Below, piece by piece: positions 1 to 24,600 of a stretch of 64,000 nt of DNA. The position numbers and the translations under genes are program-made. How positions within the stretch are numbered: position 1 is the stretch's first letter; the number at the start of each line of letters is the position of its first letter. This DNA is from Siphonodentalium dalli. Its lineage: Eukaryota > Mollusca > Scaphopoda > Gadilida > Siphonodentaliidae. Under the pieces are notes generated by a model. It saw nothing but the letters and a program-made list of their open reading frames with translations. It did not search any database and was not told the origin of the DNA. The DNA lies in assembly GCA_032622095.1 (NCBI GenBank), contig CP136069.1, positions 85,210,958 to 85,274,957 on the forward strand, read 5' to 3'.

Positions 1-3000
1 ACAACGACAACAATGAGAACAACTTCTACAACAAAGACAACAACAATCACAAGTACACCATCACCAACTACTACAACGACTACAACAACGACGTCCACAA
101 CCACAAGTTCACAATCAACAACTACTACAACGACTACAACAGCGACGTCCACAACCACGGCAACGACTACAACAACCACAGTGACCTCAACGAAAACAAC
201 GACAACAACGAAAACAACAACGACGTCCACACCCACAACGACCTCAACAACCACAACAGCGACTACAACAACCAGAACGACCTCAACAACAACGACTACA
301 ACGACAACAACTTCTACAACAGCGACAACAACAACGACAAGTACATCATCAACAACTACTACAACGACTACAACAACGGCGTCCACTACCACAACAACGA
401 CTACAACAACAACCTCAACAACAACGACGACTACAACAACAACAACCACAAGTACACCATCAATAACTACTGCAACGACTACAACAACGACGTCCACAAC
501 CACAACAACGACTACAACAACCACAGCGACCTCAACGAAAACAACGACAACAACGAAAACAACAACGACGTCCACACCCACAACGACCTCAACAACCACA
601 ACAGCGACTACAACAACCAGAACGACCTCAACAACCACAACAACGACTACAGCGACCTCAACAACAACAACAACGACTACAACGACAACAACTTCTCCAA
701 CAACGACAACAACCGCAAGTACACCATCACCAACTACTACAACGACTACAACAACGACGTCTACAACCACAACAACGACTACAACAACCACAGCGACATC
801 AACAACGACTAGAACAAGAACTTCGACAACAACGACACCAACAACCACAAGTACATCATCGACAACTACGACAACGAATAAACCAACGACGTCCACAACC
901 ACAACAACGACTACAACAACCACAGCGACATCAACAACCACACCAACGACTACAACAACCACGACGTCCTCAACAACGACTACAACGACAGCAACTTCTA
1001 CAACAACCACAATTGCACCATCAACAACTACTACCACGACTACTTCAACGACGTCCACAGCCACAACAGCGGCTACAACGACTACAACGACAACAACTTC
1101 TACAATAGCGACAACAACCACCAGTACTACGACTACATCAACGACGTCCACAACCACAGCAACGACTACAACAACCACATCGACCTCAACAACGACAACA
1201 ACGACAACACCTTCTATAACAACTACAAGTACACCATCAACATCTACTACAACGAACACAGTAACGACTACAACAACAACGGCGATATCAACAACGACAA
1301 CAACGACTACAACGACAACAACAACCACAACGACCTCAACACCGACTACAACGACAACAACTTATACAACAACGACAACAACAACAACAAGTACACCATC
1401 AATAACTACTACAACAACCACAAGTTCACCATCAACAACTACTACAACGACTACAACAACGACGTCCACAACCACCACAACGCCTACAACAACCACGACG
1501 TCCTCAACAACGACAACAATGAGAACAACTTCTACAACAAAGACAACAACAATCACAAGTACACCATCACCAACTACTACAACGACTACAACAACGACGT
1601 CCACAACCACAACAACGACTACAACAACCACAGTGACATCAACAACGACTACAACAGGAACTTCGACAACAACGACAACAACAACCACAAGTACATCATC
1701 GACAACTACTACAACGAATACACCAACGACGTCCACAACCACAACAACGACTACAACAACCACAGCGTCATCAACAACCACAACAACGACTACAACAACC
1801 ACGACGTCATCAACAACGACTACAACGACAGCAACTTGTACAACAACCAAAAGTACACCATCAACAACTACTACCACGACTACTTCAACGACGTCCACAG
1901 CCACAACAGCGGCTACAACAACAACGACAACAACTTCTACAATAGCGACAGCAACCACCAGTATTACGACTACATCAACGACATCCACAACCACAGCAAC
2001 GACTACAACAACCACATCGACCTCAACAACGACAACAACGACAACACCTTCTACAACAACTACAAGTACACCATCAACATCTACTATAACGAACACAGCA
2101 ACGACTACAACTACAACGGCGACCTCAACAACGACAACAACGACTACAACGACAACAACAACCACAACGACCTCAACACCGACTACAACGACAACATCTT
2201 ATACAACAACGACAACAACAACAAGTACACCATCAACAACTACTACAACAACCACAAGTTCACCATCAGCAATTACTACAACGACTACAACAACGACGTC
2301 CACAACCACGGCAACGTCTACAACAACCACAGTGACCTCAACGACAGCAACGTAAACAACAACCACGGCCACACCCACAACGACACCAACAACCACAACA
2401 ACGACTACAACAACAACCAGAACGACCTCAACAACGACTACAACGACAACAACTTCTACAACAGCGACAACAACAACCACAAGTACATCACCAACTACTA
2501 TTACAATGACTACAACAACGACGTCCACTACCACAACAACGACTACAACAACGACAACGACATTAACAACAACAACGACTACAACAACAACCACAAGTAC
2601 ACCATCAATAACTACTACAACGACTACAACAACGACGTCCACAACCACGACAACGACCACAACAACCCCATCGGCATCGAAAACCACAACAACGACTACA
2701 GCTACCTCAACAACAACAACAACAACGACTACAACGACAACAACTTCTACAACAACGACAACAACCGCAAGTACACCATCAATAATTACTACAACGACTA
2801 CGTCAACGACATCCACAACCACAACAGCGACGACAACAACGACCACAACATATACAACAAAAACAACCACAAGCACATCATCAACAACTACAACAACGAC
2901 TACAACAACGACATCCACAGCAACCACAACGACTACAACGACTACAACGACAACAACGACAACAATTTCTGCAATGACAACAACCGCAAGTACATCATCA

Positions 3001-6000
3001 ACAACTACTACAGCGAATTCAACAACGGCGTCCACAACCAAAACAACGACTTCAACAACCGCAACGACACCAACAACGACAACAACGACTTCAACGACAA
3101 CAACTTCTACAACAACGACAACAACCACAATCACATCATTCACAACTACTACAGCGACTACAACAACGACGTCTACAACCACAATAGCGAATAAAACAAC
3201 CACAACGACCTCAACAACGACAACAACCACTACAACGACAACAACTTCTACAACAACGACAACACCCACAAGCACATCATCCACAACTACTACAACGACT
3301 ACAACAACGACGTCCACAACCACCACAACGCCTACAACCACCACGACGTCCTCAACAACGACAACAACGAGAACAACTTCTACAACAAAGAAAACAACTA
3401 TCACAAGTACACCATCACCAACTACTACAACGACAACAACAACGACGTCCACAACCACGGCAACGACTACAACAATCACAGTGACCTCAACGAAAACAAC
3501 GAAAACAACAACGACGTCCACACCCACAACGACCTCAACAACCACAACGACGACTACAACAACCACATCGACCTCAACAACAACGACAACAACTTCTACA
3601 ATAGCGACAACAACAACCATAAGTACATCATCAACAACTACTACAACGACTACAACAACGACGTCCACTACCACAACAACGACTACAACAACGACAACGA
3701 CCTCAACAACAACAACAACGACTACAACAACAGCAACAACCACAAGTACACCATCAATAACTACTACAACGACTACAACAACAACGTCCACAACCACAAC
3801 AACGACTACAACAACCACAGCGGCCTCGACAACCACAACAACGACTGCAGCGACCTCAACAACAACAACGACTACAACGACAACAACTTCCACAACAACG
3901 ACAACAACCGCAAGTACACCATCACCAACTACTATAAAGACTACAACAACGACGTCCACAACCACAACACCGACTACAACAACCACAGCGACATCAACAA
4001 CGACTACAACAAGAACTTCGACAACAACGACACCAACAACCACAAGTACATCATCAACAACTACAACAACTACTACACCAACGACGTCCACAACCACAAC
4101 AACGACTACAACAACCACAGCGACATCAACAACCACAACAATGACTACAACAACCACGACGTACTCAACAACGACTACAACGACAGCAACTTCTACAACA
4201 AGCACAAGTAAACCATCAACAACTACTACCACGACTAATTCAACGACGTCCACAGCCACAACAGCGGCTACAACAACAACGACTACAACGACAACAACTT
4301 CTACAATAGCGACAACAACCAGCAGTATTACGACTACATCAACGACATCCACAACCACAGCAACGACTACAACAACCACATCGACCTCAACAACGACACC
4401 AACGACAACACCTTCTACAACAACTACAAGTACACCATCAACATCTACTACAACGAACACAGCAACGACTACAACTACAACGGCGACCTCAACAACGACA
4501 ACAACGACTACAACGACAACAACAACCACAACAACCTCAACATCGACTACAACGACAACAACTTATACAACAACGACAACAACAACCACAAGTTCACCAT
4601 CAACAACTACTACAACGACTACAACAACGACGTCCACAATCACGGCAACGACTACAACAACCACAGTGATCTCAACGACAACAACGAAAACAACAACCGC
4701 GTGCACCCACAACGACACCAACAACCACAACAACGACTACAACAACCAGAACGACCTCAACAACGACTACAACGACAACAACTTCTACAACAGCGACAAC
4801 AACAACCACAAGTACATCATCAACAACTACTACAATGACTACAACAACGACGTCCACTACCACAACAACGACTACAACAACGACAACCTCCTCAACAACA
4901 ACAACCAATACAACAACAACAACAGCAACCACAAGTACACCATCAATAACTACTACAACGACTACAACAACGACGTCCACAAACACAACACCGACTACAA
5001 CAACCCCATCGGCCTCGACAACCACAACAACGACTACAGCGACCTCAACAACAACCACAACAACGACTACAACGACAACAACGACAACAACCGCAAGTAC
5101 ACCATCAACAATTACTACAACGACTACGTTAACGACCTCCACAACCACAACAACGGCTACAGCAACAAAAACGACACCAGCGACGACAACAACGACCACA
5201 ACATATACAACAAAAACAACCACAAGCACATCATCAACAACTACAACAACGACTACAACAACGAGATCCACAGCAAACACAACGACTACAACGATTACAA
5301 CGACAACAATTTCTACAACGACAACAACCGCAAGTACATCATCAACAACTACTACAGCGACTACAACAACGGCGTTCACAACCAAAACAACGATTTCAAC
5401 AACCGCAACGACATCAACAACGACAACAACGACTTCAACGACAACAACTTCTACAACAACGACAACAACCACAATCACATCATCAACAACTACTACAGCG
5501 ACTACAACAACGGCGTCCACAACCAAAACAACGACTTCAACAACCACAACGACCTCAACAACGACAATAACTACTACAACGACAACTACTTCTACAACAA
5601 CGACAACACCCACAAGCACATCATCCACAACTACTACAACGACTACAACAACGACGTCCACAAACACCACAACGCCTACAACAACCACGACGTCCTCAAC
5701 AACGACAACAACGAGAACAACTTCTACAACAAAGACAACAACAATCACAAGTACACCATCACCAACTACTACAACGACTACAACAACGACGTCCACAACC
5801 ACAACAAAGACTACAACAAGAACTTCGACAAAAACGACACCAACGACCACAAGTACATCATCGACAACTACTACAACGAATACACCAACGACGTCCACAA
5901 CCACAGCGACATCAACAACCACAACAACGACTACAACAACCACGACGTCCTCAACAACGACTACAGCGACAGCAACTTCTACAACAACCACAAGTACACC

Positions 6001-8330
6001 ATCAACAACTACTACCACGACTACACCAACGACGTTCACATTCACAACAGCGGCTACAACAACAACGACTACAACGACAACAACTTCTACAATAGCGACA
6101 ACAACCACCAGTACTACGACTACATCAACGATGTCCACAACCACAACAACGACTACAACAACCACAGCGACATCAACAACAACAACGACAACACCTTCTA
6201 CAACAACCACAAGTACACCATCAACATCTACTAGAACGAACACAGCAACGACTACAACAACAACGGCGACCTCAACAACGACAACAACGACCACAACGAC
6301 ATCAACACCGACTACAACGACATCAACTTATACAACAACGACAACAACAACAACAATTACACCACCAACAACTACTACAACGACTACAACAACCACAAGT
6401 TCACCATCAACAACTACTACAACGACTACAACAACGACGTCCACAACCCCGGCAACGACTACAACAACCACAGTGACCTCAACGACAACAACGACAACAA
6501 CGAAAACAACAACGACGTCCACACCCACAACGACCCCAACAATCACAACAACGACTACAACAACCAGAACTACCTCAACAACCACGACTACAACGACAAC
6601 AACTTCTACAACAGCGACAACAATAACCACAAGTACATCATCAACAACTACTACAACGACTACAACAACGACGTCCACTACCACAACAACGACTACAACA
6701 ACGACAACGACCTCAACAACAACAACGACTACAACAACAACAACCACAAGTACACCATCAATAACTACTACAACGACTACAACAACGACATCCACAACCA
6801 CAACAACGACTACAACAACCACAGCGGCCTCGACAACCACAACAACGACAACAGCGACAACAACTTCTACAACAACCGCAAGTACACCACCAACAATTAC
6901 TACAACGACTACGGCAACAACCTCCACAACAAGAACAACGGCTACAACATCAAAAAAGACACCAGCAACGACAACAACGACCACAACATATCCAACAAAA
7001 ACAACCACAAGCACATCATCAACAACTACAACAACGACAACAACAACGACGTCCACTACCACAACAACGACTACAACAACGACAACGACCTCAACAACAA
7101 CAACGACTACAACAACAACAACCACAAGTACACCATCAATAGCTACTACAACGACTACAACAACGACGTCCACAACCACAACAACGACTACAAAAATCAC
7201 AGCGGCCTCGACAACCACAACAACGACTACAGCGACCTCAACAACAACAACAACTACTACAACGACAACAACTTCTACAACAACGACAACAACCACAAGT
7301 GCATTATCAACAACGACTACAACGACTTCCACAACCACAACGACTACAACAACCACAGCGACCTCAGCAACGACAACAACTTCTACAACAACGACAACAA
7401 AAACCACAAGTACATCATCACCAACAGCTACAACGACTACACCAACGACGTCCACAACCACAACAACGACTACAACAACAACAGCGATATCAACAACCAC
7501 AACAACGACTACAACGACAACAACTTTTACAACAACGACAACAACCACAAGTGCATTATCAACAACAACGACTACAACGACGTCCACAAACACAACAACG
7601 ACTACAACAACCACAGCGACCTCAACAACGACAACAACGACTACAACGACGACAACAACAACGACCACAAATACACCATCAACAACTACTACAACGACTA
7701 CAAACACGACATCCACAACCACGGCAACGACTACAACAACCACAGATACCTCAACGACAACAACGACTACAACGACAACAACAACGACGTCCACAACCAC
7801 AACGACATCAACAACCACAACAACGACTACAATAACCGCAAAAACCTCATCAACCGCAACAACGACTACACCGACCTCAACAACGACAACAACGACTACA
7901 ACGACAACAACTTCTACAACAACGACAACAACCACAAGTACACGATCAACAACTACTACAATAACTACGTCAACGACGTCTACAACCACAACAACGGCTA
8001 CAACAACAACGACCCCAGCAACGAAAACAACGACCCCAGCAACGACAACAACGACCACACCATCTACAACAAAAACAACCACAAGTACCTCATCAACAAC
8101 TACTACAATGACTACAACAACGACGTCCACAACTACCACAACGACCTCAGCAACGACAACGACAACACCAACAACGACTAAAACAACAACAACCTCTTCA
8201 ACAACTAGAACAACAACAGCCACAAGTACATCATCAACAACTACTACAACGACTACAACAACTACGTCCACAACCACAACAACGACTACAACACCACAAC
8301 GACTTCAACCACAACGACTACAACAAATAC
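1..8330 (+). repeat. Degenerate ACA/ACG/ACT/ACC coding satellite
   Basis: Over 8 kb consists of Thr codons punctuated by short landmarks encoding TSTPS, TSTSS, TTATST and TTTSTT, so units of roughly 100-130 bp can be followed. A larger order is visible: the landmark encoding RTTSTTK recurs at about 16, 1522, 3370 and 5713 (spacing about 1.5, 1.85 and 2.3 kb). A second landmark encoding TPSTTTTSTPSTST recurs near 1209, 2046, 4408 and 6191. Because the triplet stays in register, other frames are also long and open: Asn/Asp/Tyr/His in one, Gln/Arg/Leu/Pro in another, and Val-rich on the minus strand. These are shadows of the Thr frame. Confidence 0.9.
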
Positions 8331-10911
8331 AATGACCACAACGACAACAACGTATACAACGACAACAACAACCACAACGACCTCAACAATTACGACAACG
8401 ACAACAACTTCTACAACAACCACAATTACTTCATCAACAACTACTACAATTACTACAACAACGACATATACAACCACAACAGCGACTACAACAACGACAA
8501 CGAACTCAACAACAACAACTACAATAACCACAACAACGACCTCAACAACGATAACAACCACTACAACGACAAAACCTTCTATAACAACGACAACAACCAC
8601 AAGTACACCATCAACAATTACTACAACTACCACAACGACAACTACAACAACATATACAACCACAATGATTACTTCAACAGTGACTACAACAACGACCACA
8701 ACAACCAAAAATACAAAAGCAACAGCAACAACGACTACAACAGCGACACCAAGAACCACAACATCAACGACTACAACAACAATGACAACAACGGCCACAA
8801 GGACAACGACTACAACGACCAGAACAACTGTGAATAAACTTATCCTATAACAACGACTACACATGTTGGTAGCACGTCGAGAGGGCGCGGAAATCGCAAA
8901 ACTTTGGATTCGGCTTCGGTCGTCTAACCCCGAAACATAGTAACATCAGATGGCGCGGTAATCGCAAAAACTTTGGATTCGGCTTAGGTCGGCTAACCCG
9001 GAAACACATTAACATCATCGGTGGTAGACAGCACGTGCGAAAGCGTCCACCTAATGGAATGAATACCAGAGAAGGGGTTAGGAATTTAGCGAAATCATAT
9101 CTGGGCCACTACATGCATTGGAATGCCGCTAGTTCCACCCGTTCTTCCAGGTCATACAAGCACAGTACTTATCATCGGAAAGCGACATTCAGAGAACACT
9201 CTTACTCACATTCGTCTAGTTATTCCAGTCCATCGACAACGACAACAACGACTACAACGACTACAACGACAACAACTTCTACAACAACTACAACAACTAC
9301 AACAACAACAACAACAGAAACCACAATTACATCATCAACAACTACTACAACGACTACAACAACGACGTCCACAACCACAACAACGACTACAACAACCACA
9401 ACGACCACAGCAACGACAAAAATTACAACAACTTCTACAACAACGACAACCACAAGTACATCATCAACAGCTACTACAACGACTACAACAACGACGCCCA
9501 CAATCACCACAACGACTACAACAGCCACAACGACTACAACGACTACAACAGCGACACCAACAACCACAACATCAACGACTACAACAACAATGACAACAAC
9601 GGCCACAAGGACAACGACTACAACGACCAGAACAACTGTGAAACAAACTTATCCTATAACAACGACTACACATGTTGGTAGCACGTCGAGAGGGCGCGGA
9701 AATCGCAAAAACTTTGGATTCGGCTTCGGTCGTCTAACCCCGAAACATAGTAACATCAGATGGCGCGGAAATCGCAAAAACTTTGGATTCGGCTCAGGTC
9801 GGCTAACCCGGAAACACATTAACATCATCGGTGGTAGACAGCACGTGCGAAAGCGTCCACCTAATGGAATGAATACCAGAGAAGGGGTTAGGAATTTAGC
9901 GAAATCATATCTGGGCCACTACATGCATTGGAATGCCGCTAGTTCCACCCGTTCTTCCAGGTCATACAAGCACAGTACTTATCATCGGAAAGCGACATTC
10001 AGAGAACACTCTTACTCACATTCGTCTAGTTATTCCAGTTCATCGACAACGACAACAACGACTACAACGACTACAACGACAACAACTTCTACAACAACTA
10101 CAACAACTACAACAACAACAACAACAGAAACCACAATTACACCATCAACAACTACTACAACGACTACAACAACGACGTCCACAACCACAACAACGACTAC
10201 AACAACCACAACGACCACAGCAACGACAAAAATTACAACAACTTCTACAACAACGACAACCACAAGTACATCATCAACAGCTACTACAACGACTACAACA
10301 ACGACGCCCACAACCACCACAACGACTACAACAGCCACAACGACTACAACGACTACAACAGCGACACCAACAACCACAACATCAACGACTACAACAACAA
10401 TGACAACAACGGCCACAAGGACAACGACTACAACGACCAGAACAACTGTGAAACAAACTTATCATATAACAACGACTACACATATTGGTAGCACGTCGAG
10501 AGGGCGCGGAAATCGCAAAATCTTTGGATTCGGCTTCGGTCGTCTAACCCCGAAACATAGTAACATCAGATGGCGCGGAAATCGCAAAAACTTTGGATTC
10601 GGCTCAGGTCGGCTAACCCGGAAACACATTAACATCATCGGTGGTAGACAGCACGTGCGAAAGCGTCCACCTAATGGAATGAATACCAGAGAAGCTGAGA
10701 AGGTGTTAGGAATTTAGCGAAATCATATCTGGGCCACTACATGCATTGGAATTCCGCTAGTTCCACCCGTTCGTCCAGTTCGTCCAAGTCGTACAAGGAC
10801 AGTACTTATCATCTGAAAGCGACATTCAGAGAACACTCTTACTCACATTCGTCTAGTTATTCCAGTTCATCGGAAAGCAATGAACTGATGGGTTGGTATT
10901 TGGCGAGGTAA
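1..10911 (+). CDS. Threonine-rich mucin-like gene, 3' part, with frame breaks
   Basis: The plus strand encodes long runs of Thr with regular Ser, Pro and Ala, the composition of a mucin PTS domain that would carry dense O-glycans. The window opens inside the array, so the 5' end is missing. The Thr frame is frame 1 up to about 4.69 kb, frame 2 to about 8.29 kb, frame 1 to 8849, frame 2 to about 10.69 kb, then frame 1 to a TAA at 10909-10911. Breaks seen against sister copies are: an AAA-to-TAA change at 2353; a 2-base loss near 4700; a shift near 8292; two 1-base losses near 8832 and 8900; and an 8-base insertion near 10693. Beyond 8.83 kb, Thr blocks alternate with basic blocks. The reading is supported by strand (same as the next gene), by composition, and by the open basic block. 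Live gene with assembly errors and decaying gene are both possible. No domain with cysteines and no intron are visible. Confidence 0.55.
8332..9234 (+). repeat. Thr/basic module, copy 1 (two 1-base deletions)
   Basis: A Thr block (8332-8830) is followed by a basic block (8831-9234). Compared with copies 2 and 3 it lacks one base near 8832 (producing a TAA at 8848-8850) and one base in the A-run near 8900. Together the two losses account for the change from frame 1 to frame 2. Copies 2 and 3 are intact at both places. Homopolymer loss at the second site is compatible with a sequencing error. Confidence 0.8.
9235..10044 (+). repeat. Thr/basic module, copy 2 (810 bp, intact)
   Basis: This is an open 270-codon unit. 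A Thr-rich block of about 135 residues leads into a cysteine-free basic block. The basic block contains two tandem copies of a roughly 25-residue motif built around GNRKNFGFG and GRLT, then a segment with RKRPPNGMN, a Trp/Tyr/His-rich stretch (GHYMHW) and a Ser/His/Tyr-rich stretch. It differs from copy 3 at only about six positions over 810 bp, so the duplication is recent or the copies are being homogenised. RKR and RGNRK are potential dibasic processing sites. I do not recognise the basic block. Confidence 0.85.
10045..10911 (+). repeat. Thr/basic module, copy 3 (terminal copy)
   Basis: The Thr block and basic block are nearly identical to copy 2 as far as position 10693, where 8 extra bases shift the frame and produce a stop at 10715-10717. 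If those 8 bases are discounted, the basic block continues to a distinct C-terminal tail (SSESNELMGWYLAR) and a TAA at 10909-10911. That is what a final repeat unit with a unique C-terminus would look like. Downstream DNA is no longer repetitive, and I see no convincing AATAAA in the next 400 bases. Confidence 0.7.
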
Positions 10912-11994
10912 TTACGAGGGCGGTTTGCGGATGCGTTCTCAGTAAGTTCGTGATCCTCAGGTGATAGTGTATTTTCTGGCTAACACACTGTCTGGAAGAA
11001 ATTCTGATTCGTCAAAATATGAAGGATACGTTTGGTTTGAAGACAAGTTGACATAATAAGTTTTATAGCAAGGAATAATTACAATGCGGATATTTTCAAT
11101 TTGAGTTTGGATGAAAGTGTTATATTTTCGCGAAGTTTGAGGATCTGATGATTCATTATTCGTCGATTGCAATACAAAAAGTCATACAGCTGGATAATCG
11201 TGTGCACTATCGTTGAGTCTCATTTTCTTTGTTGTGTATTTATTTCGTGTATGTTATATTGTTGGTTACATTATTGCAAATATATTACATTAAATTTGAC
11301 ACTGAACTGCAAACAAATCTAAAATGATCATCTGTTATGCCAATAATATGACTCATTCCTATATGCACAGAACACATATAATATTTGTTAATAATCCCAT
11401 CAATATTTTCACAATTCACATAATCCACACACGGTTACAAATCATAGAGCTTAACGACACACATTTAGCAATAATACCAACAAACACGGGAACATAAAAG
11501 CCAGGGGATTGACAGGGTCAGACAAACATAGCCGAATCCAGTATCGGTCAAAATAGTCAACATTTGCAGATTCCATGACTGAAAGCAGTGTAAAATATCA
11601 GACTGGCAAATAGCTTAAGACAATTAGTAGTATAAATATCATTTCTTCCAGTATTTGGTAAGTAGTATATTGTGTTAGACCAATCGTCGAATATTTCCTA
11701 TTAGAGAGCACCAAACTCAGAATTCTCCATGGTTGGAAAATTTCCAACTGATGGTCATTTCAGTCTTTCAGTCTAAAAGTTTGACTGAAGCTATGAAAAT
11801 ATTCGAATATTGGTCTCTTGATCTGAATACAACATGCGAATACAATGTACCCGTATCGCCACGTCCCACAGTTATAATTAATTTGTCGCCGGGGGCTTCT
11901 AAAAATCGTATTCACCGAAAATTATTTTACACAAAAAAAAAAAGGAATGAAAATTTTTTCTATCTCTGAATATAACATTAAAATTTGTATCTAA
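10912..11994. other. Intergenic, no recognised feature
   Basis: AT-rich sequence with stops in all frames and only short ORFs of low complexity. A fragment near 11738-11765 resembles the inner repeat of the hAT-like elements described at 14071 and 57634. Confidence 0.5.
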
Positions 11995-12952
11995 CAATAC
12001 ATTATTTTATAACACACTTGTTCGTAGAATTATACTGTTCTTGTTATACTATATTTTCAAATCCGTATGACGCACGTTTGGCATATGCATTGTGTTCGTC
12101 AAGAACGGTTCTTGTCTCATGACGTTCACCCAACCATGAATCATTTACAAAATAACGCGGGTAATATATTTCTTTGTTAACAAATGTTTCTTAAAGGGGT
12201 ACTGAACGCCATTTTCAATAAATTCCCGGTAATAACAATGATCTAATATCGATATTATATAGAAAAATAAGAAATTTGAGTCGAAGATATTATGTATACG
12301 ATCAGGATAATATGTTATCTTAAAATCAAAGTTATTAATTTGAAATAAATTTAATTTATGGCTGGAACCATAAAATAAATTACGAATTTCCGTGTACAAG
12401 ACGTAGTCAAATTAATTCAGATATTGGATTCGGCAACTCAAGCCAATCACTAACTGGTGACTATGCAGTAACTTAAATCAGTATATGTGACTAGTATACA
12501 TATAATATAACATTTATTTCATACAATTGCTGAACACTGTACAAAAATTACCTTACAAAAATTTGTATTTTCGCATTCCGGCTAATGTCTAATGTGCCAT
12601 CCATAAAATTACTTCGTAATTTCAAATAATGGAAATCTGATTATCATATAGACTATAGAAACCAACAACAACATTTGAGTACAGTATCCCTTTAGTAATG
12701 TATTACGCAGTAGACGAAGATCCCAGTTTGACATTGCATGATGTATGATACTTTGTGAGCCGATTTCACAATAAACATAAATTTAATTACCCGAGGAAAT
12801 GTTCATGATTGTATAAGTGACGCATGCAGAACGAAATCGGCTTACAACAGTCGTCTAAATCGTGCAATTGTAAGTTGGGATCTTCGCAGACTATAGCGCA
12901 TGCTTTGAACTGGTGGAACATGCTATCTACGGACATAGCCAGAGTAATGAAT
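11995..12952. repeat. Segmental duplication, copy A
   Basis: Both ends of this block match 15925-16995: 11995-12193 matches 15925-16126, 12695-12755 matches 16127-16190, and 12791-12952 matches 16834-16995. The interior differs because each copy took a different insertion. The short ORFs inside are not supported as genes. Confidence 0.75.
12194..12691. mobile_element. Harbinger-like MITE (498 bp) with TTA target duplication
   Basis: The ends are inverted repeats: AAGGGGTACTG at the left and CAGTATCCCT at the right. TTA flanks both sides (12191-12193 and 12692-12694). The sister duplication at 16124-16126 has the same flanking sequence with a single TTA and no insert, which is an empty site. 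The 3-bp TWA-type duplication suggests PIF/Harbinger mobilisation. No ORF is present, so it is non-autonomous. Confidence 0.75.
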
Positions 12953-13467
12953 GATGTCATTAACTCGTACATCCATCAGCCTGACAAGGTACAGAGGCGA
13001 GGTTATGTCAGAGATAAAAATCGGACCATATGTTGTGGTTATAACCTGGACACACCAATCAGTAATTGGGTCCAGCTGCTCCTTAAATTTGATAACGTTC
13101 CTAGAAATAATAAGCCGCTGTTCTGAAACTGCTACGTTTCATTTATGATTGCTTCGAAGAAATTCGGCTGAACGTCACAAAATAATAAGTTTTAACACGC
13201 TCACTGCATGCGGACGCCCATTCAATTACATGAAAAAAGTACGAGATAACTCGTAGTCGGCAGCGAACTTGGTCTATGTGTTGTTTCTGAATGGGATATT
13301 TGGGATATCAGATCGGCGATTTTTAACGCTATGTTTAGCATCACGTCGAAATAAAAATACTTAATTACGGCAATGTAGTTCTCATTTCCCACGTCGATTT
13401 GGATGTCTACGAAGAACACATCCGTATGTAATTAGCTCCATCTCTGCGAATAATGTATATCTGGCCA
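12953..13467. other. Intergenic, no recognised feature
   Basis: Unique-looking AT-rich DNA with short ORFs on both strands and no domain similarity that I can recognise. Confidence 0.4.
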
Positions 13468-13946
13468 CTGAGGGGGTGTTTATACATTACCCGGCGAAGA
13501 TCGCATTCGCTTTAGCCGGCAGTGATAACAATAGAGTGTTTATACTTCGCCGGATAAGAATTACGGCTATCCGGATACTCAGCTATACGGTTTTCAACTT
13601 TTGGATAAAATGATTTAGTACAAGCACCTGATAGTCGTATGGATTCTAATTCGCTCTGCGGTTAAGTTAGATGTTTATCTTGGGTCATGCCGTCATGGGT
13701 GATTTCCTTTCAACAATTAACTCGAACAATATTATTGTGCAATCGCATCGCCGATAGACCAGCCCGCTTTTCACCTGTGTATATATTGGTCAGTGTGCCA
13801 GTTTGATTGTCTCTAATCAGCTGTCAGGTCGGTGGTCACGCACCTTGGTTATAAGCTATTATTATAAATACTAACCGATGATGGTACACGTACTCTGCAT
13901 GTGCATGGTACATTTGTTGCGCATTCGAGGGAATTAATTCTTAATT

Positions 13947-13978
13947 CATGTACATGTACATGTACATATATATATATG
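13947..13978. repeat. Microsatellite (GTACAT then AT)
   Basis: A short run of GTACAT repeats passes into an AT dinucleotide run. Confidence 0.8.
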
Positions 13979-14070
13979 GAAGAAATGGGATGGCACGTTT
14001 CTGTGGATTCAAACTTAATGGACAATTAGTTCAATAATCTAAATCTGAGTGCGCCGTTGACATATTTACA

Positions 14071-14494
14071 CAGGGACGGGTCTAGAGGGCCTGATTTGGA
14101 GGTGTGGGACTGTTCATCTTTGGAATTTATCGACCGACCGTGGTTATGGCCAGGTGTGAGAATTTTTTTTAATTTGAACCCTGAAAATTGCAAAATCCTA
14201 GCATCCAGCCTTAAGATTTCCAATTGTTGGACATTTTCCAAACTTGACGCACCTCTAATAAGGTTGGATCATTTCCAACTGATGGTCATTTCAGTCCAAC
14301 AATTTGGTAAAAAAATAAGCAAATGTTTCCTAAAGAAATCACCAATAACAAATTGTTGAAAATAAAACTACGAGAACAATTTCATCATATTGCTGATGTC
14401 AAATGTCCAACTATTGCCGTGTCAGGTATGAAATTTCCAGCTTTTGAATATTTTGATTAAAGTTGGGATGAGACACCCCCATCGCCACGGCCCT
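14071..14494. mobile_element. hAT-like MITE, diverged copy
   Basis: The left end reads CAGGGACGGGTCTAGAGGG, a near match to the terminus of the element at 57634. The right end carries the inverted counterpart (CGCCACGGCCCTA). An imperfect 8-bp duplication flanks it (TATTTACA versus TATATACA). The interior shares the TTGGACATTTTCCAA and CATTTCCAACTGATGG motifs with the 57634 element. Exact right boundary is uncertain by one or two bases. Confidence 0.6.
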
Positions 14495-15074
14495 ATATAC
14501 ATGGACATGGTGAACGCCCGAGTAAAATGAAAAACATATTTTATTGTATAATGTGCAGACGGAAAATGTGTCACATTTGATTCGCGATGTTGAAACTTAT
14601 ATATATAATATAAAATCCAATCCGAATGATTAGACACCAATTTGTAGATGTATGCGACGAAAATATCTCAAAACTGACAATGGCCATGCTTTTGGTGCGG
14701 CACTCACTTCACAGGCTGTATGTGAACCCAAACAAACCATTAACAATGTTTTTAAATATCTATAAAATTACCAATAGCAATACCTGAAAGTTTGAGTTGG
14801 ATATTAATAATTTCGGCATTTCCATTTCTAAAACGTTTTATTTCACTATACTGCCCAAACATATCTCTAACAGGAAGCGGCTAGATGTTTACAGGTGTAC
14901 AGCAATATCATATTGCAGTTCAGTGAGAACTAAAACGAAAACTATTAACAAGTAAAGGAGACACATGCATATATGCGTATCTTCGCCGGCGATGTGTAAA
15001 CACTCTGCCCGACCTTCGCCGGCTAACGGGTTCGCCGGGTAACGGCTTCACCGGCTATGTGTGAACGTCACCTG

Positions 15075-15392
15075 AGTTACATAATATATCTAGTGTTACG
15101 TCTTAGGTTTCGAATGTCCAATCACAGACTTCCCATTGAAACTGGATCATGGAATGATACCAATCGGAAAGATAGAGTATGTACGAGATGTAATACAGGA
15201 TTACTTGAAGATGAATATCATTGTATTTTACAATGCTCTTCGCTTGATTATCTGAGAAAAAAATATATTCCCAAATTCTTTCGAAATTATCCGAATTTAG
15301 TTAATTTTACTAAATTGTTTAACTCTAAAAACAAGAATATATTGATTAAACTCTCCACATTTATACAAAACGCAAGAGTTAATTACGAATAA
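15075..15392 (+). pseudogene. LINE ORF2 C-terminal remnant (zinc-knuckle tail)
   Basis: About 105 residues are open. They contain RLRFRMSNHRLPIETGSW followed by a CxxC...H...C zinc-binding pattern (CTRCNTGLLEDEYHCILQC) and a final stop. This block is typical of the extreme C-terminus of non-LTR retrotransposon polymerases in invertebrates. The reverse transcriptase core is absent, so it is a 5'-truncated remnant. It directly abuts the right arm of the foldback element. Confidence 0.75.
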
Positions 15393-15924
15393 TGCATGAT
15401 ATCTGCACTCAGTCACGATATCTCCAACAGTTTCGATGAGATAGCGCGATTTAGTGATGCATGTCATCAAACAACATTGGTCTAATCAACATCATATTCC
15501 AAGCGGGATCTATCTCTAACTCACTCAAAATGGGACGCTTGAACTATGTATACAAAGCATTTAAGGGCGAACAATCTCATAATACCAACTACAGAAGAAT
15601 AACTGTTCTACCAGTCCTTCCAAAACTATTGAAGTGACAATTCAATTGACAGACCAAGCGCTACGTAGAGGGTTTACTGCAAACGCATCACCATTGAATA
15701 GTCCATTTATGTTGGAGCTGTTCGGGAGCAGTGTGACAATACGTGTGATGTATATATTGGACTTTATTGGTGCCAAATCAGCTTTCGGCGAATTCAACAA
15801 GGAAATACCTACCTATCTTCCATCGGACATCCGTACCGAACTCTGAGTGATGTCATACACACCAACCCTTTATCCGTCGTCAACTGGAGAGCTAATAAAT
15901 CATCTGACTTCCAAGTTCTTCATT
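15393..15924. other. Intergenic, possible LINE 3' flank
   Basis: No gene recognised. The 70-codon ORF at 15634-15846 has no recognisable domain. Confidence 0.4.
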
Positions 15925-16995
15925 TTTTATCACACCATTGTTTGTAGAATTATACTGTTCCTGCTATACTATGTTTTCAAATCCGTATGACACACGTTTG
16001 GCATATGCATTGCGTTCTTCAAGAACGGTTCTGTCACATGACGTTCACCCACCCATGAAACGGGAACTTTATAACATTTACAAAATAACGCAGGTAATAT
16101 ATTTCTTTGTTAACAAATGTTTCTTAATAATGTATTACGCAGTATATAGACGAAGATCAGAGATTGACATTGCATGATGTATGAGACTTTATTATACACG
16201 CTTGTTCCCAGAAGTACGGTGTTATTGCTGTTCCATATTTACAAATCCGTATGGAACGTACGTTCCATACGCATCTCGTTGACGTAAAATGACGTTCGCC
16301 TCAACCATGAAACTGGAACTATTTAGATAAAAGAATCATCACACATGACAAACACGCCCTGTACGAGCCTAAATAAACTTTTAATCCTGTATTTTTAATG
16401 CACGGATTCTAGGACGCAAGCGCCTCTCGTTCTATCCTTCCGCGACAGCACTCGTGCCGTATCGACAAACCCATTTACACATCGTTTCGTTATGTGTATT
16501 TATTACACGCTTGTTCCCAGAAGTACAGTGTTATTGCCGTTCCATATTTACAAATCCGTATGGAACGTACGTTCCATACGCATCTCGTTGACGTAAAACG
16601 ACGTACATGACGTTCGTCTCAACCATGAAACCGGAACTATAAAATAAAAGCATCACCACACATGACAAAACACGTCCTCTATGTGCCTAAATAAACCTTC
16701 TAAGCCTGTATTTTTAATGCACAGATTCTAGGACGCGAAGCGTGTAATAAACACAGAACGAGACGATGTGTAAATGGGTTTGTCGATACGGCACTCGTGC
16801 TGTCGCGGAAGGGTAGAACTCGAGGCGCAAGCGAGGAAATGTTCATGATTGTATAAGCGACACAGAACGATATCCGCTTACAACAGTCGTCTAATTCATG
16901 CAATTGTAAGTTGTGACCTTCGCAGACTATGAACTATATCCCAGGCTTTGAACTGGTGGAACATGACATCTACGGATATAGCCAGAGTAGTGAAT
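15925..16995. repeat. Segmental duplication, copy B, with inserted repeat cluster
   Basis: The ends match 11995-12952. The middle (about 16190-16833) holds two direct copies (about 16195-16500 and 16505-16735) of a sequence with CAAATCCGTATGGAACGTAC. These are diverged relatives of the duplication's own left part. They are followed by an inverted segment: 16737-16812 is the reverse complement of 16435-16510. Confidence 0.7.
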
Positions 16996-19110
16996 TATGG
17001 CTATAAAGTTGCCTATATATTGAGCGCAAACTTGTACACACTCTACATAAATGGCATCGTTTCTCAATTAACCGAAACTAATCTCGGTACAAATATTGGG
17101 AACGTCAACGTCGTCTTGGTTATCTCCATCTCTAACAATATACAAACTTTAATCAACATAGCTTGTTGTTGTGGATATCCATCTTTTAAGTGAGGAGCAC
17201 CCCATTATATTGGGAATATAAAGGACACCATTACAGTCATGAACATCGTTACCATCTTTAATCAGGCAAAGTGTAATATTCAGTGACTCAAAATGGGAAA
17301 CATCAACCTTCTACTGAGTGTTTTTCAATGGAACGTATCCTTCAATAACGTGGCACATGTATCAGGTGAAGGTCATTCTTCAGTTACCTTCACCATTCCA
17401 CGGTGTACTCTCTCCTCGACTCTGAGACACATTTAGCTCTCTGATTCCATATAGCTTGATGCCAATTGGACTGCATGAAGAGATTGCTTGTAATAATCGC
17501 CCATGTGTCCATCTGTATAGAGCTTATACGCTTCCTCTATTCCAACTATTATTCCAACTATTATGCATTATTTATACCATCAAATAATCAGCTAAGTGAA
17601 TGCTTGTAATTATCTCGGAATTATTAGTGAAATGAAACATAATTATGTATTCACTCCTGATAATATACAAACTGAGTCAGGAAACACATATGCAATATTG
17701 CAGCACTTCTCGGCGTTAATGTTAAATACATGGTTCTCAGCCGCATTTGTTTCCTGAGCACACAATAGTCCAATGTATATAAACAAGCATATACCAGACT
17801 TCCATGCACCGACACAACTATATAGTGAACCCCAAGGCCAAAATGTAACTATGTCATATATACATGACTTGTGGACTATGGTGTCCCATGGAGAAAATGG
17901 ATCTCCCATCAAAAGTGTCTGGTCCAGTTATGATCACCAGAGTTCACTCTATGTCGTGTTGGACGTATATTAGAAAACCGAGACAATGTGCCTCATTTCT
18001 CACCCATGTTCGGACTGAGCCTGAGAGGAAGCTGAAATTTCAGGTAGAGCGCTTCCCTTCAACGTTGTCATGGAAGCCTGAGATGCCCGCAAATTTGAAC
18101 AAATCTGAATCTACCATTCCGATCGAACCATGGCCATTCCTATCGAAACATGGCAATTTCGATAAGAAATTGGAATTTTTTATCAAACGTTTCGAAACAT
18201 TGACCATTCCATAAGTAGTGTCTCGTGCACTCAATTATACATGCATATACTTTCTGACGATAACTCTTCTTGGTCTATGTATTAATCTTCAATTTTTATT
18301 TTGAAATTTGCAATTTTTGTCCAATCAACATATAATTAGGAAACATTACGATATAGCAAAATAATATCACTTAGTTGCGTACTTAACTGTCGCATCATTT
18401 CTAAGTATGATATGCACCTATTAGTGACTAGAGAACATTGTATGCATTGTTTGACACTCATGATTAAATTGTACAGTACATGTAGCCCAGATGTGTAGCT
18501 ATTGCGTTGGCTGATTATTTTTATCTACGTCAAGCAAAAACTCATTTCATTTCAAAGGCACAGCTATTAAATTATACCCATATTCCACTCTCTACTATAT
18601 ATTACATGTACTTCATGCAGTGGCTATCAAGGTCTTTTTCTTTCTCAGTATTTCTGTCGGTCGATATTCAAGTCAATAATCATGTATCAGCTTCATATAC
18701 CTGGCTACATATATATATAACACATAAACCCACATTGAATGACAAAATGTTACATCCTCAAGTCAACAGTATAAAATTATAACAAAACATTTGCAACTAT
18801 AATCTTGCCCTGTGATCGTTTTACACCACTCACTGGTTACCAACACCAATTTTTGTATAGGATAGTTGATCATACCTAATCAATCAAACAATCGCCGACA
18901 TATTTCCCAGTCCATTATAATGTCACATGGAGTGCATTGGCCAGTAGATTTGAACACCGTGTGTGCACGCGCATCATTATAATTGTGAGGTAAATGTTAT
19001 ATAGGCCTAAGATGAAATCCCTTTACACTTAATGCTGGTCTTTATATATTCACTCAGAAGTATTTCAATGTTCGCAAAAAGACGGGAAGAAAATACATAT
19101 ATGGGAACTG
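16996..19110. other. Intergenic, no recognised gene
   Basis: AT-rich DNA. The ORFs (for example 17643-17912 minus, 17864-18214 plus) overlap on opposite strands and show no domains. Nothing convincing was found. Confidence 0.4.
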
Positions 19111-19440
19111 TTTTTAGCTCAACTTGACAAAGTCAAGTTTGAGCTATTGCCATGGGTTGGTGTCCGTCGTCCGTTCGTGAACAATTTGGCACACCGTGCA
19201 GGCCACATCCATCATCCTGCCAACACCAAACTGCATATGGATTTTCGAGGTAACATCAAGATTATTTGCGAATTTCGTTAAAAAAAAAACATGGTCGCCC
19301 AGCAGCCACGTTTATTGGAGAAATGTTTGAAAAGAAAATAATCTCATCTACACAACACATGTACAATCACTTTCCTGAAATTGTTGACTGTCCTTTATCA
19401 ATTTATTGACTGCTCGGCATAAAATTGAGCTACACTGCCA
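19111..19440. repeat. Dispersed repeat with AGCTCAACTTGAC hairpin start
   Basis: Begins with a short hairpin (AGCTCAACTTGAC / GTCAAGTTTGAGCT), followed by a GTCCGTCGTCCGTTCGTGAA stretch, the style of a dispersed MITE-like family in invertebrate genomes. A second copy is not present in the window, so this is inference. Confidence 0.35.
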
Positions 19441-19598
19441 GTGACACTTTCATTTATGATTTTGCTTCTGATCGTGCTACTATCATTTCACTGTTTTTTT
19501 GGTTCTAATAATATATTAGAATAGGCTAAATAGTCATTGCTAGAAAGAACCAGGCTTATATCATTTTGTTTTAAAATATTCTGATTTAGTTACTAATT

Positions 19599-19614
19599 GG
19601 GGGGGGGGGGGGGG
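19599..19614. repeat. Poly-G run (16 bp)
   Basis: An uninterrupted G homopolymer. Confidence 0.95.
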
Positions 19615-20677
19615 TTGGGTCCCAAAACGTTGCCCTGGAAAAATCTGTTCAATCCGGAAGTTTAATGTAGGGTGACGATTAAGCGGCGTATCATTTATCG
19701 GATGTGAATTAACATTCGAGGAGCATGCAGTTGAACCTCCGTAAATCAAATGTCAAATATATTTAGTAGAAAATTCAACGTATATATTATCATACATTAA
19801 TGGGCATATTAGAACCAGCGATCCATTAAAGACGAATTATGCTAATTTTAGCAAATCACCTCGATGATTGAGTGCCAAGGCAGACACTCTATGTCAACCA
19901 AAAGAAAGATCGACTATCTCCACATGCACGAGCGCAGACATTACATATCTGAGTACATTATGAAGCCAATCCACATAGGTAGTGATGGAATGAACGCATG
20001 GGCCTACCACGCTTGCAGAATGTGATTCAAAATTACTAGTTCATATATAGGGTAACAATTATAGTCATTGTCTATCACTAACTTTTGGAAATTGTCTAAA
20101 ACCTTTAGATCTACGTGGAACAGAAACCATATTTTGCACAGAATGGTCAAATACAATGTACATTATATAATTATGTGTTAATGAAAAGACAACTCTCGTC
20201 CAAAACAAAACAAACTGATGCTCAGATTTCCGGCAATTTATTTCTCACGAGGATAACAACATTTTGGCTGCTAAACGTTGGTCCACATTATATGGAGCCG
20301 TCATTTCAAAGAACTCTACTGTTGGCCCTAGGCCACTTGCAACTATTTATCGAATAAACATCAGTTTGGCGCTCCCTCTAAACATTCACAAACTCACAAT
20401 CCTGACATACCTATACCATTTACGGTAATTTATAAGTACAACATCGCTCGTAACTGTGGTGTGTCGTCTTTGATGGATCAACGTTCGTGCACATACACTA
20501 CATATCCCGCGCACGTAACATTTTGTGAATATTTATCAATCGGGGACACCAGGTATTTACCATCCCACCTGTTCCGAGTAAGAACATATCGTATTCCTTT
20601 ACGACTTATGTTATCCAATTACCAAAAACAAGTATTACAATAATCGGTTGCAATCACTCAATGGCAACATTTGTTTC

Positions 20678-20796
20678 TGATTGGAGAATATAAAACATTG
20701 GAGGTCCGAAGGCAATTTACTCGTTACGAGAGAGAAGACTGCGTGCGTTGCTGTGTGACCAGAACAATTTTTGGGGGCACAACTTCGCCCAACAAG
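20678..20796 (+). promoter_or_regulatory. Putative promoter and 5' UTR of the EMI/VWD gene
   Basis: TATAAAA at 20689-20695 is preceded by ATTGG (an inverted CCAAT box) at 20680-20684 and lies 108 bases upstream of the initiator ATG. That spacing would put transcription start near 20720 and give a 5' UTR of about 75 bases. The reading frame of exon 1 stays open back to 20671, but that stretch would lie over the TATA box, so the upstream ORF is not used as the start. Confidence 0.5.
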
Positions 20797-20885
20797 ATGG
20801 GTACTTCGGTTGTCCCGTCGTTATTGTTACTCTTTGGTCTTCTACTCGGACTCTTGATCGAAAACGTACTTTCACAAAACGAGAG
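20797..20885 (+). CDS. Exon 1: signal peptide
   Basis: The ATG is in the context AACAAGATGG. The leader is classic: a short polar start, a leucine-rich core (SLLLLFGLLLGLL) and a likely cleavage near VLS-Q. The donor AG|GTAAG leaves the codon split after two bases; it is completed by the first base of exon 2. Confidence 0.85.
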
Positions 20886-21613
20886 GTAAGAATATAGACG
20901 TTGATATAGCTATACACACTTATATGAGCCATATCCCAATATTGACCCTTTCATGACGGGAGCTGTGTCGGTGCAGCATTAAAGCCCTGTGCAAGTGCAT
21001 TATCTTATATATGCGAGCCTAGCCTATATCAGATAATGCACTACATGGCTTACAAGGTCAGGGTACATATTGTTAGAACAGAAGGTGAGACTTGATTTCA
21101 AAGCCAAATTAGGGTTGACAAGTTCTCAGACGAGTCGGGCGTTGGATAGACTTAAAAATATAGGGCCTGAATTGGTGAATTCGGAGAACCAGACATAGAA
21201 GACAGTGACAGAAGCCAGCGTCCACTAACAGCATAAGGTATCATAAGGTATGATGGGAGCAACCTGTGGGAGACTCGCATATATAAGAGAATGTATTGGC
21301 ACAGGGTTTTCACAAACTTTCAGGAGGCTCCAGTCACATAATGATTAACTGGTCGTTGAAAGGTTGAAGCCAGAACTAATTGGTAATGCGTTGCATGGAT
21401 TCATTCTTATTGTGTGTGTAAATGAACAGCTTTCCGGTTTGGTTATAACTAGCAACTCAGAATGGCATATCATGACACCAAGTTGTCTGGAATTATCATA
21501 AATGTCCATCTACATGTGCAGCTTCAATATAAGATGATGACATCCGCTTACTTCCAATTTGTATTTGTAATCTATTATATATTTTGAAAGATCTGTGTGT
21601 GTATGTATGTGTT

Positions 21614-21663
<50 letters not shown>

Positions 21664-24600
21664 AAATCGATGGACTCCAAAACGACTAAGCCAATTTCGA
21701 TGAAATTTGGTATTTTAGGGTATTTTCGGCCGGAGACGAACATAGGCATATTTATTTGTCCGTGCGAGGTCAACTTTTCACGTGCGGAGGTCAAATCTAT
21801 TTTTACGCCGTTTTTGCGCTAATATATTTCAGTTCGGTGCTCACAAATCGATTCGATATAGCGCGAATAATAAATTGCCAGTCATATAATTTGCACGGTT
21901 AGAATCTGTGTGGCTTCATCTTTCCAACGATATATAATATGTATGTATCCGTTTTAGTTATCTGCCTCAATTATTAGGTACAAGTGGTACAATGCTTTTA
22001 TCGGGATAAAATCAATGCGTAAATTCTATGACGTCGTCAGAGGTCATAAAGTTAGATTACGTTAACTCTCACCCTGCCGATGCATTTGACTGTGTCGCGT
22101 TAACTCATCACCGGCCGAGGTATCCGCAAATGACATTGGGCTATATATCTCGGAAACGGGTGTAGCTATCGACTTGAAATTTGGTATGTGAATGTATCTT
22201 GCCCCGGATACGAATTTTATCGGGTCGCCGAGCACGTGCGACGCCAGCTTCGCGCATGCGCAGACGAGATCTCGAAAACGGGTTGAGATATTGACTTTAA
22301 ATTTGGTATGTGAATGTATCTTGCCCCGGATACGAATTTTATCGGGTCGCCGAGCACGTGCGACACCAGCTTCGCGCATGCGCAGACCAGATCTAGGAAA
22401 CGGGTGGAGCAATCGACTTGAAATTTGGTTTTTTAATAGCCCGGACGAAGTCGGGTCACCTTCTAGTCTATTATATATTTTGAAAGATCTGTGTGTGTGT
22501 TTGAAATCGATGGACTCGAAAACGACTAAGCCAATTTCGATGAAATTTGGTATTTTAGGGTATTTTCGGCCGGAGACGAACATAGGCATATTTATTTGTC
22601 CGTGCGAGGTCAACTTTTCACGTGCGGAGGTCAAATCTGTTTTTACGCCGTTTTGCGCTAATATATTTCAGTTCGGTGCTCACAAATCGATACGATATAG
22701 CGCGAATAATAAATTGCCAGTCATATAATTTGCACGGTTAGAATCTGTGTGGCTTCATCTTTCCAACGATATATAATATGTATGTATCCGTTTTAGTTAT
22801 CTGCCTCAATTATTAGGTACAAGTGGTGCGATCTTTTATCAGGATAAAATCAATGCGTAAATTCTATGACGTCGTCAGAGGTCATAAAGTTAGATTACGT
22901 TAACTCTCACCCTGCCGATGCATTTGACTGTGTCGCGTTAACTCATCACCGGCCGAGGTATCCGCAAATGACATTGGGCTATATATCTCTGAAACGGGTG
23001 TAGCTATCGACTTGAAATTTTGTATGTGAATGTATCTTGCCCCGGATACGAATTTTATCGGATCGCCGAGCACGTGCGACGCCAGCTTCGCGCATGCGCA
23101 GACGAGATCTCGGAAACGGGTTGAGATATTGACTTTAAATTTGGTATGTGAATGTATCTTGCCCCGGATACGAATTTTATCGGGTCGCCGAGCACGTGCG
23201 ACACCAGCTTCGCGCATGCGCAGACCAGATCTAGGAAACGGGTGGAGCAATCGACTTGAAATTTGGTTTTTGAATAGCCCGGACGAAGTCGGGTCACCTT
23301 CTAGTATTAATATATGTTTTGAATGTACAAGTCTATAATGATACAACATAATTTTGATGTCCGTTTGTTTGTTTGTTTGTTTGTCGGCTTATAGGCCACC
23401 AAACGGCTGGTCAATCGGAGCTGAACATTTGTGTGTAGGGGAACATTTGTGTGTAGGGAGCGTTATTAGGTAGGTCCCGTTCACATCAGATGTCTTAAAA
23501 GGGCACTAATAATTATTTTGACTAGAGACGACCAAACGGTTGGATCATCGGAGCTGAACGTGTGTACATATGAGTAATTTATTATATTAGATATGTTCCG
23601 TTTACCGCAGGTGTCTTAACCCTTTGAACCCTGACACCCCACAGTGATCGACACCCTGACCGGGGCTCCCAGTGGTATTTCCGCTTAAATTAGACAGTTT
23701 CTAGTAGCATGGTGTTGATTATGTTCAAACTGTGACACAGGTATGAAACTTTACAGGTTAGTCCCCCATGGATCAGCGATCATTATAAGATCACGAGACT
23801 TTGCCTCGCGGCAATTCCTTGGTAACGGTTGCTAGGCAACTACCCGGAATTGACTGGAAAATGTAAATATAGCTTATAGCATCGTTATTCAACCCCAGTG
23901 ATTGCGTTTTTTGATACAGGTAATACCCTAACGTGAATTTGAGATATACCCGACCAGAATAGTGAACCAAATATCCCATTTATGGGTAGCAACGGTTGCT
24001 AAGCAAATACCACTAATGATCGAATGACATTGCACTAACTATTCAGTGGTATGTTTTGCCTTAATTTAGACAGTGTCTATAGTCGCGTGGTGTTGGTTAT
24101 GTTCAAAGGGGACACATAACTGAAACTGTACAGGCATGCTATGCATGCATGAACCACTGATCAGCGTAAGACCGGGATACTTTGCAACCCGATCTCTCCT
24201 TAGAAACGGTTACTAGGCAACTACCCGAAATTTGCAGGATAAACGAATTCTAGCTTTTAACGTTGTAATTATACATCAGCGAATTGCGTTTCGATGCAAC
24301 CAATATCCTAATGTGAAATTTAAGATATACCTGACCATGTGCGAGTAAGTCAACTTGATATGCCATAGACTTTTTGTCGCATGTGGCATAACAGAGACTG
24401 ATATTACAGAGACCATGCAGAAACAAACGTAATTTCCCGTAACATATCGTGGCCCCATTGTTCAAGTAAGCTGTCTAGATTGTGTCTACTGAACATGTGA
24501 AACATGCAACTATATGTCATATATAGCGCCACAATTCACTTAAACGCATTTTTCAAAATGAATTATAGCCTGCGCGCATGTGCATATTTTCCTACCCGTT

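Follow-up and report, generated by a model that had tools for sequence, protein, structure and literature searches.

MUC19 is rich in Ser, Thr and Gly, and its gene also carries VWD domains. The central exon of human MUC19 is broken in frame by an indel in CHM13, and a study of its long-read haplotypes found no complete ORF in any of them (PMC13345508). Work on snail mucus regards the mucins of invertebrates as orthologous to SCO-spondins (PMC10475054).

The window, i.e. the whole stretch of 64,000 nucleotides that was analysed (C9:85210958-85274957), belongs to a 2.23-Gb genome in 9 contigs. It contains the 3' part of a feature of ~33 kb that consists of a Thr-coding (ACN)n array, followed at its 3' end by modules in which Thr blocks alternate with basic blocks. 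The array starts at ~C9:85188700, about 22 kb upstream of the window, and ~31 kb of it precedes the modules, with 22 kb of that outside the window. With a probability of roughly 0.6, this feature is a formerly coding mucin-type Thr exon, the basic tail of which was recently triplicated, and which is now decaying. Its elements are as follows, in window positions:

1..8830, extending upstream of the window, + strand: Thr-coding (ACN)n array, which reads as poly-Thr
4624..4782, + strand: tandem duplication with a period of 85, which is not divisible by 3, located at or close to the first Thr frame change
8870..9234, + strand: basic block copy 1, in which the frame of copy 2 is open from about residue 10
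9235..9640, + strand: Thr block of module 2
9680..10045, + strand: basic block copy 2, the sole copy open throughout in the Thr frame
10046..10450, + strand: Thr block of module 3
10490..10870, + strand: basic block copy 3, which carries insertions of 8 and 9 bases
10871..10911, + strand: unique end, ESNELMGWYLAR then TAA at 10909-10911

Within the array, followed in 500-base steps, the share of Thr in one frame is 66-79%, and the array has the long Pro/Thr/Ser-rich tandem repeat of a mucin PTS domain. A single Thr frame runs for 26.9 kb with no frameshift before its first change, and a second frame change, at ~8250-8290, leads back again. Four in-frame TAA codons are present among the 8,948 codons that precede the first frame change; with these stops and frame changes, the frame through the repeat exon is not open as it would be in a mucin. 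Inspection by eye of the ORFs of 75 aa or longer in the 27.8 kb upstream revealed no signal peptide and no Cys-rich or membrane partner, and the stretch 10911-20560 was inspected for partner domains as ORF lists alone. No VWD, C8 or TIL domains were found in the Thr/basic feature, and Rfam and tRNA searches of the window returned nothing.

Copies 2 and 3 of the modules are full units of 810 bp and copy 1 is a partial one, each full module combining a Thr block of ~400 bases with a basic block of ~370-390 bases. The period of 810 bp given in the preliminary description is found between copies 2 and 3 (810 bases, or 270 codons), and the unit is a repeat beyond chance. The identity of these two copies, put at about 99%, is confirmed by 796 identical bases out of 807 aligned; the two differ by 11 substitutions, and copy 3 additionally has one insertion of 8 bases and one of 9. 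Copy 1 is different, with a basic block that abuts the end of the long array directly and a Thr part that closely matches copy 2 over the last ~100 bases only. The basic block of copy 2 comprises 122 aa, with a pI of 12 and a charge of +24, and its composition agrees with the earlier claim of a Cys-free, Trp/Tyr/His-rich block with RKR (an RKR site, 2 Trp, 6 Tyr, 9 His, 0 Cys). The two tandem GNRKNFGFG...GRLT motifs also described there correspond to a 69-base tandem repeat in this copy, identical at 62 of 69 positions, and the first motif of copy 3 reads GNRKIFGFG. At the unique end, the TAA overlaps a GAG/GTAATT, cut after 10907, that is donor-like by comparison with the donor consensus.

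An intact module is not found in every copy, two of the three being broken. Compared to copy 2, copy 1 has 1-base deletions at 8833 (immediately upstream of the block and beside a substitution) and at 8898 (near the start of the block), and the frame of the array itself runs into a stop at the start of copy 1, ending at 8850. Copy 3 contains a frame-breaking insertion of 8 bases at ~10689 and an in-frame insertion of 9 bases at ~10779; the rest of this copy after the former is open in another frame, up to the TAA at 10909-10911. Most of the blocks can be read in an ORF of 614 aa (8873-10717), which spans the block of copy 1 from ~residue 10, all of the copy 2 module, and the block of copy 3 to residue 75. 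The two 1-base deletions in copy 1 sever this ORF from the array, and the 8-base insertion in copy 3 severs it from its own 3' end. Copy 2 alone has a block that can be read through in one frame together with the Thr blocks on either side. When the block was shuffled 20,000 times with its dinucleotides preserved, this frame was open in 0.96% of the shuffles and any + frame in 2.9%, and the evidence for the basic block as a reading frame is thus modest. For a precursor cleaved at dibasic sites, which had also been proposed, the 614-aa ORF does cover most of the blocks, with no secretion signal recognised and with the frame broken on both sides; nothing beyond RKR itself points to cleavage, and RKR precedes Pro, which furin-type enzymes accept poorly at P1'.

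Thr arrays of the same kind occur elsewhere in the genome. The loci L001, L002, L011, L012, and L020-L035 belong to a large set of poly-Thr exons spread over the genome, which when pooled have a strong excess of silent differences and which lack internal stops. Cys-containing stretches adjoin some of these arrays (L011, L024, L025, and L028), and Pfam assigned no family to those of L024 and L028. The stretch adjoining L011 is an LDLa-like motif. On the same strand as the modules, a Thr array at C9:85326.3-85332.9k shares its frame with an LDLa-like motif that lies about 105-110 kb downstream of the modules (Pfam E 0.005, which does not reach the family cut-off), and another Thr array is located at C9:85352.5-85355.7k. 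L030 (C6:224737400-224743200) is composed of three near-identical tandem copies of a Thr exon with its flanks, ~1.9 kb apart.

Constraint on the codons was assessed as the share of silent changes among single-base codon differences between recently duplicated array segments, with a neutral expectation of 0.324 silent, calculated for the array codons with each transition weighted four times as much as each transversion. In the array, this share is 30/143 at an identity of at least 96.5%, 162/403 at 92-96.5%, 292/619 at 88-92%, and 487/817 at 80-88%. Recent changes in the array thus look neutral or below, and older ones look constrained, which is the combination expected of a decayed mucin exon; so is homology to working members, seen here as a DNA identity of 74-78% between the Thr block and the best-scoring arrays elsewhere.

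The controls were 20 loci with 22 array segments, with 16 further stretches chosen among the DNA-search matches, of which not all were taken. A single array supplied L002, L022, and L023, of which L002 and L023 overlap by about 0.6 kb, and three of the 22 segments, all in L030, yielded no pairs. In the youngest class, 47 of 69 differences are silent in the relatives L011, L012, and L002, versus 30/143 in the array (Fisher p 4e-11), and in all 20 control loci pooled, at an identity of at least 92%, the share is 314/451, versus 85/282 in the array at equal settings (p 7e-26), both p values being too small because the differences are not independent. The purifying codon selection found in the relatives is therefore not seen in the array. 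With longer tiles and a longer seed, the array has 107 silent differences out of 274. A polarised count at three tile sizes gave 76/242, 95/257, and 73/229 silent for the array and 102/162, 70/100, and 35/45 for six controls pooled, with L029 lacking tiles and L023 lacking usable differences at the two larger sizes. Low silent shares are present among individual controls (L031, 1/8; L032, 1/3; L029, 10/20; L034, 5/10; L021, 6/12), and in the polarised count L029 is the only low one among the six (3/11, 90-base tiles). L029 and L031 are possibly relaxed or decaying as well. Constraint in the part of the array before the first TAA was considered and set aside, with 26/49 silent for 150-base tiles, yet 8/23 for 90-base and 10/26 for 210-base tiles. 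When the basic blocks of the three copies are compared, together with the bases immediately preceding each, four substitutions are silent and nine are not, close to the neutral share of 0.28.

The stop codons can be compared in a similar manner. Control segments were trimmed to their first and last TT before counting, and contain no stops in 12,569 codons, where the rate of the array would predict 5.6 (P 0.004). The 17 stops present in seven of the 20 untrimmed control loci are located beyond the ends of the arrays, with none left after trimming. L030, considered as a decayed but frame-true array, was rejected on the same grounds, since its stops lie outside the array and it thus provides no test of frame retention. 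In the array itself, private substitutions are estimated at roughly 206-481, and stops represent 0.85% of neutral changes; ~2-4 stops would thus be expected by neutral drift, and the four seen fit drift.

Frame retention is more ambiguous. In the 26.9 kb before the first frame change, 56,974 of 56,974 repeated 40-mer pairs are spaced by multiples of 3, either because the frame is still selected, or because indels of 1-2 bases are rare in a triplet repeat with no homopolymer runs. The agreement between the four stops seen and the ~2-4 expected under neutrality favours the latter. As a proof of coding, the spacing was dropped, as the stretch had been ended at the first frame change and triplet slippage would give the same pattern. 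All repeat spacings in 22 of 22 control segments are also multiples of 3, these segments being likewise defined by one frame.

These observations bear on whether the feature might still be a living giant mucin, with its stops and frame changes being assembly errors or belonging to a minor haplotype, and with most replacements of Thr being tolerated. A single Thr frame across 26.9 kb, the constraint on older differences, unit lengths of 810 and 69 that are both multiples of 3, and the 614-aa ORF over most of the blocks, with copy 2 open as in 0.96% of the shuffles, would all be consistent with it. Nevertheless, we consider it unlikely, as similarly composed relatives, taken from this same assembly, are free of stops in 12,569 codons and are 70% silent when pooled, and the frequency of stops in the array is roughly that expected under neutral drift. 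Of the earlier view of the Thr blocks, the mucin-like ancestry stands, with many like exons in the genome, most of those tested being strongly constrained, but a living secreted protein of alternating glycan-bearing and polycationic blocks is unsupported in the assembled sequence, in view of the frame-breaking indels, the four stops, and the neutral recent substitutions. It is highly doubtful that some individuals make a protein of >9,000 residues in which O-glycosylated Thr stretches would alternate with Cys-free blocks of charge +24. If they did, it would be a self-complexing mucin that condenses via polycation and glycan segments and not via cysteines, under very lax constraint on single residues; if any such protein is made, alternation of glycan and polycation blocks would set it apart from the usual build of mucus or glue proteins.

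The nature of the basic block has to be weighed separately. Protein and DNA searches at E 0.001 did not find it elsewhere in the 2.23-Gb genome. In agreement with the preliminary description, which knew of no family for it, the block has no Pfam or PDB relative: Pfam gave a chance-level match alone (E 0.56), and a search of the PDB gave no match. The AlphaFold model of a single block sequence has a mean pLDDT of 56 and no usable fold, with one helix predicted for residues 67-86 (pLDDT about 67-80). The restriction of the block to this locus, its lack of a family, and the neutral mix of its substitutions could mean that it was never protein, but unique non-coding DNA next to the array, carried along in a satellite-like duplication of the end. 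This is distinctly improbable, as copy 2 is open in the Thr frame, which so few shuffles reproduce, as the unit lengths keep the frame, and as the 9-base insertion in copy 3 preserves it as well.

On the + strand, an SCO-spondin/mucin-like gene starts 10 kb downstream of the feature and occupies positions 20797-54850 of the window and beyond. The following parts of it were recognised:

20797-20885, inside the conserved stretch 20562-20918, + strand: likely signal-peptide exon (exon 1)
26117-26354 and 29380-29464, + strand: segments conserved in comparison with a paralogue
from 32565, + strand: EGF-like exon
from about 45781, + strand: TIL-like exon, assigned by eye
47551-47769, + strand: ORF with a VWD-like start, assigned by eye
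53313-53663, + strand: ORF with C8
54317-54850, + strand: ORF with TIL

One of the early segments ends with a CCPGYTGPQC pattern, which recalls EMI domains, and Pfam gave no match for 26150-26338. The paralogue of this gene is located on C9 near 208.25-208.35 Mb, on the - strand, and exon 1 and the two early segments are conserved in it near 208.34-208.35 Mb, with their order kept; the 18 kb that precede exon 1 of the paralogue showed neither a Thr array nor a basic block. This arrangement indicates that the Thr/basic feature is probably separate from the gene downstream. That the Thr and basic blocks form an exon of the SCO-spondin-like gene is barely credible and was dropped, for although they share its strand and the phases of the donor-like cut after 10907 and of the EGF exon acceptor match (phase determined by hand), the gene has an apparent exon 1 of its own, with a signal peptide, and two segments before the EGF exon, which the paralogue keeps with neither Thr array nor basic block seen in the 18 kb upstream. 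Elsewhere in the window, a minisatellite with a period of 122 is found at 22147-22429 and 22985-23275, with nearly the same consensus in both places, and a reverse-transcriptase-associated zinc-binding (zf-RVT) fragment at 60581-61603 on the - strand (E 2.7e-5, just below the cut-off) is probably a remnant of a retroelement.

If the feature is a decaying mucin-type exon, the ancestral exon would have encoded an extended Thr-rich, O-glycosylatable region with a single short basic tail at its end, and the array itself is seen today. The tail, together with ~400 bases of Thr repeat, would have been copied in 810-base steps to yield the present copies, the duplication itself being evident from the modules. 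The array would have gone on growing by in-phase repeat exchange. Selection at the codon level would then have lapsed, after which the stops and frame breaks that are now observed may have built up, and the contrast between constrained old and neutral recent changes is present in the array. While working, the exon likely served, by analogy with its living relatives, as a spacer that carried glycans within a secreted or surface protein, and we infer that the cationic tail could have bound its own or other acidic glycans.

Compared to gel-forming mucins and SCO-spondin, characterized by VWD-C8-TIL, the feature is close in position, with one such gene 10 kb downstream and Thr arrays farther along the strand, but it differs in that no VWD, C8, or TIL was found in it, and the neighbouring gene has an apparent start of its own. 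The central VNTR exon of human MUC19 is similar in being a very large mucin repeat exon with its frame broken by an indel (PMC13345508). The present locus differs in its poly-Thr repeat and in the triplication of a unique basic tail, and no partner exon rich in Cys was recognised for it. A clean ORF over the repeat units is, in such a case, no proof that the whole is translated, and the silent share of recent versus older copy-to-copy changes is a simple means of separating living from dead mucin-like exons within one genome, with no need for transcripts. The other Thr (ACN)n exons of the same genome (L011, L012, L002, L024, and others) share the codon make-up and the style of repeat and are detectable by DNA search, but they extend over 0.6-6.6 kb in the stretches read, are free of internal stops, and have a strong pooled excess of silent differences.
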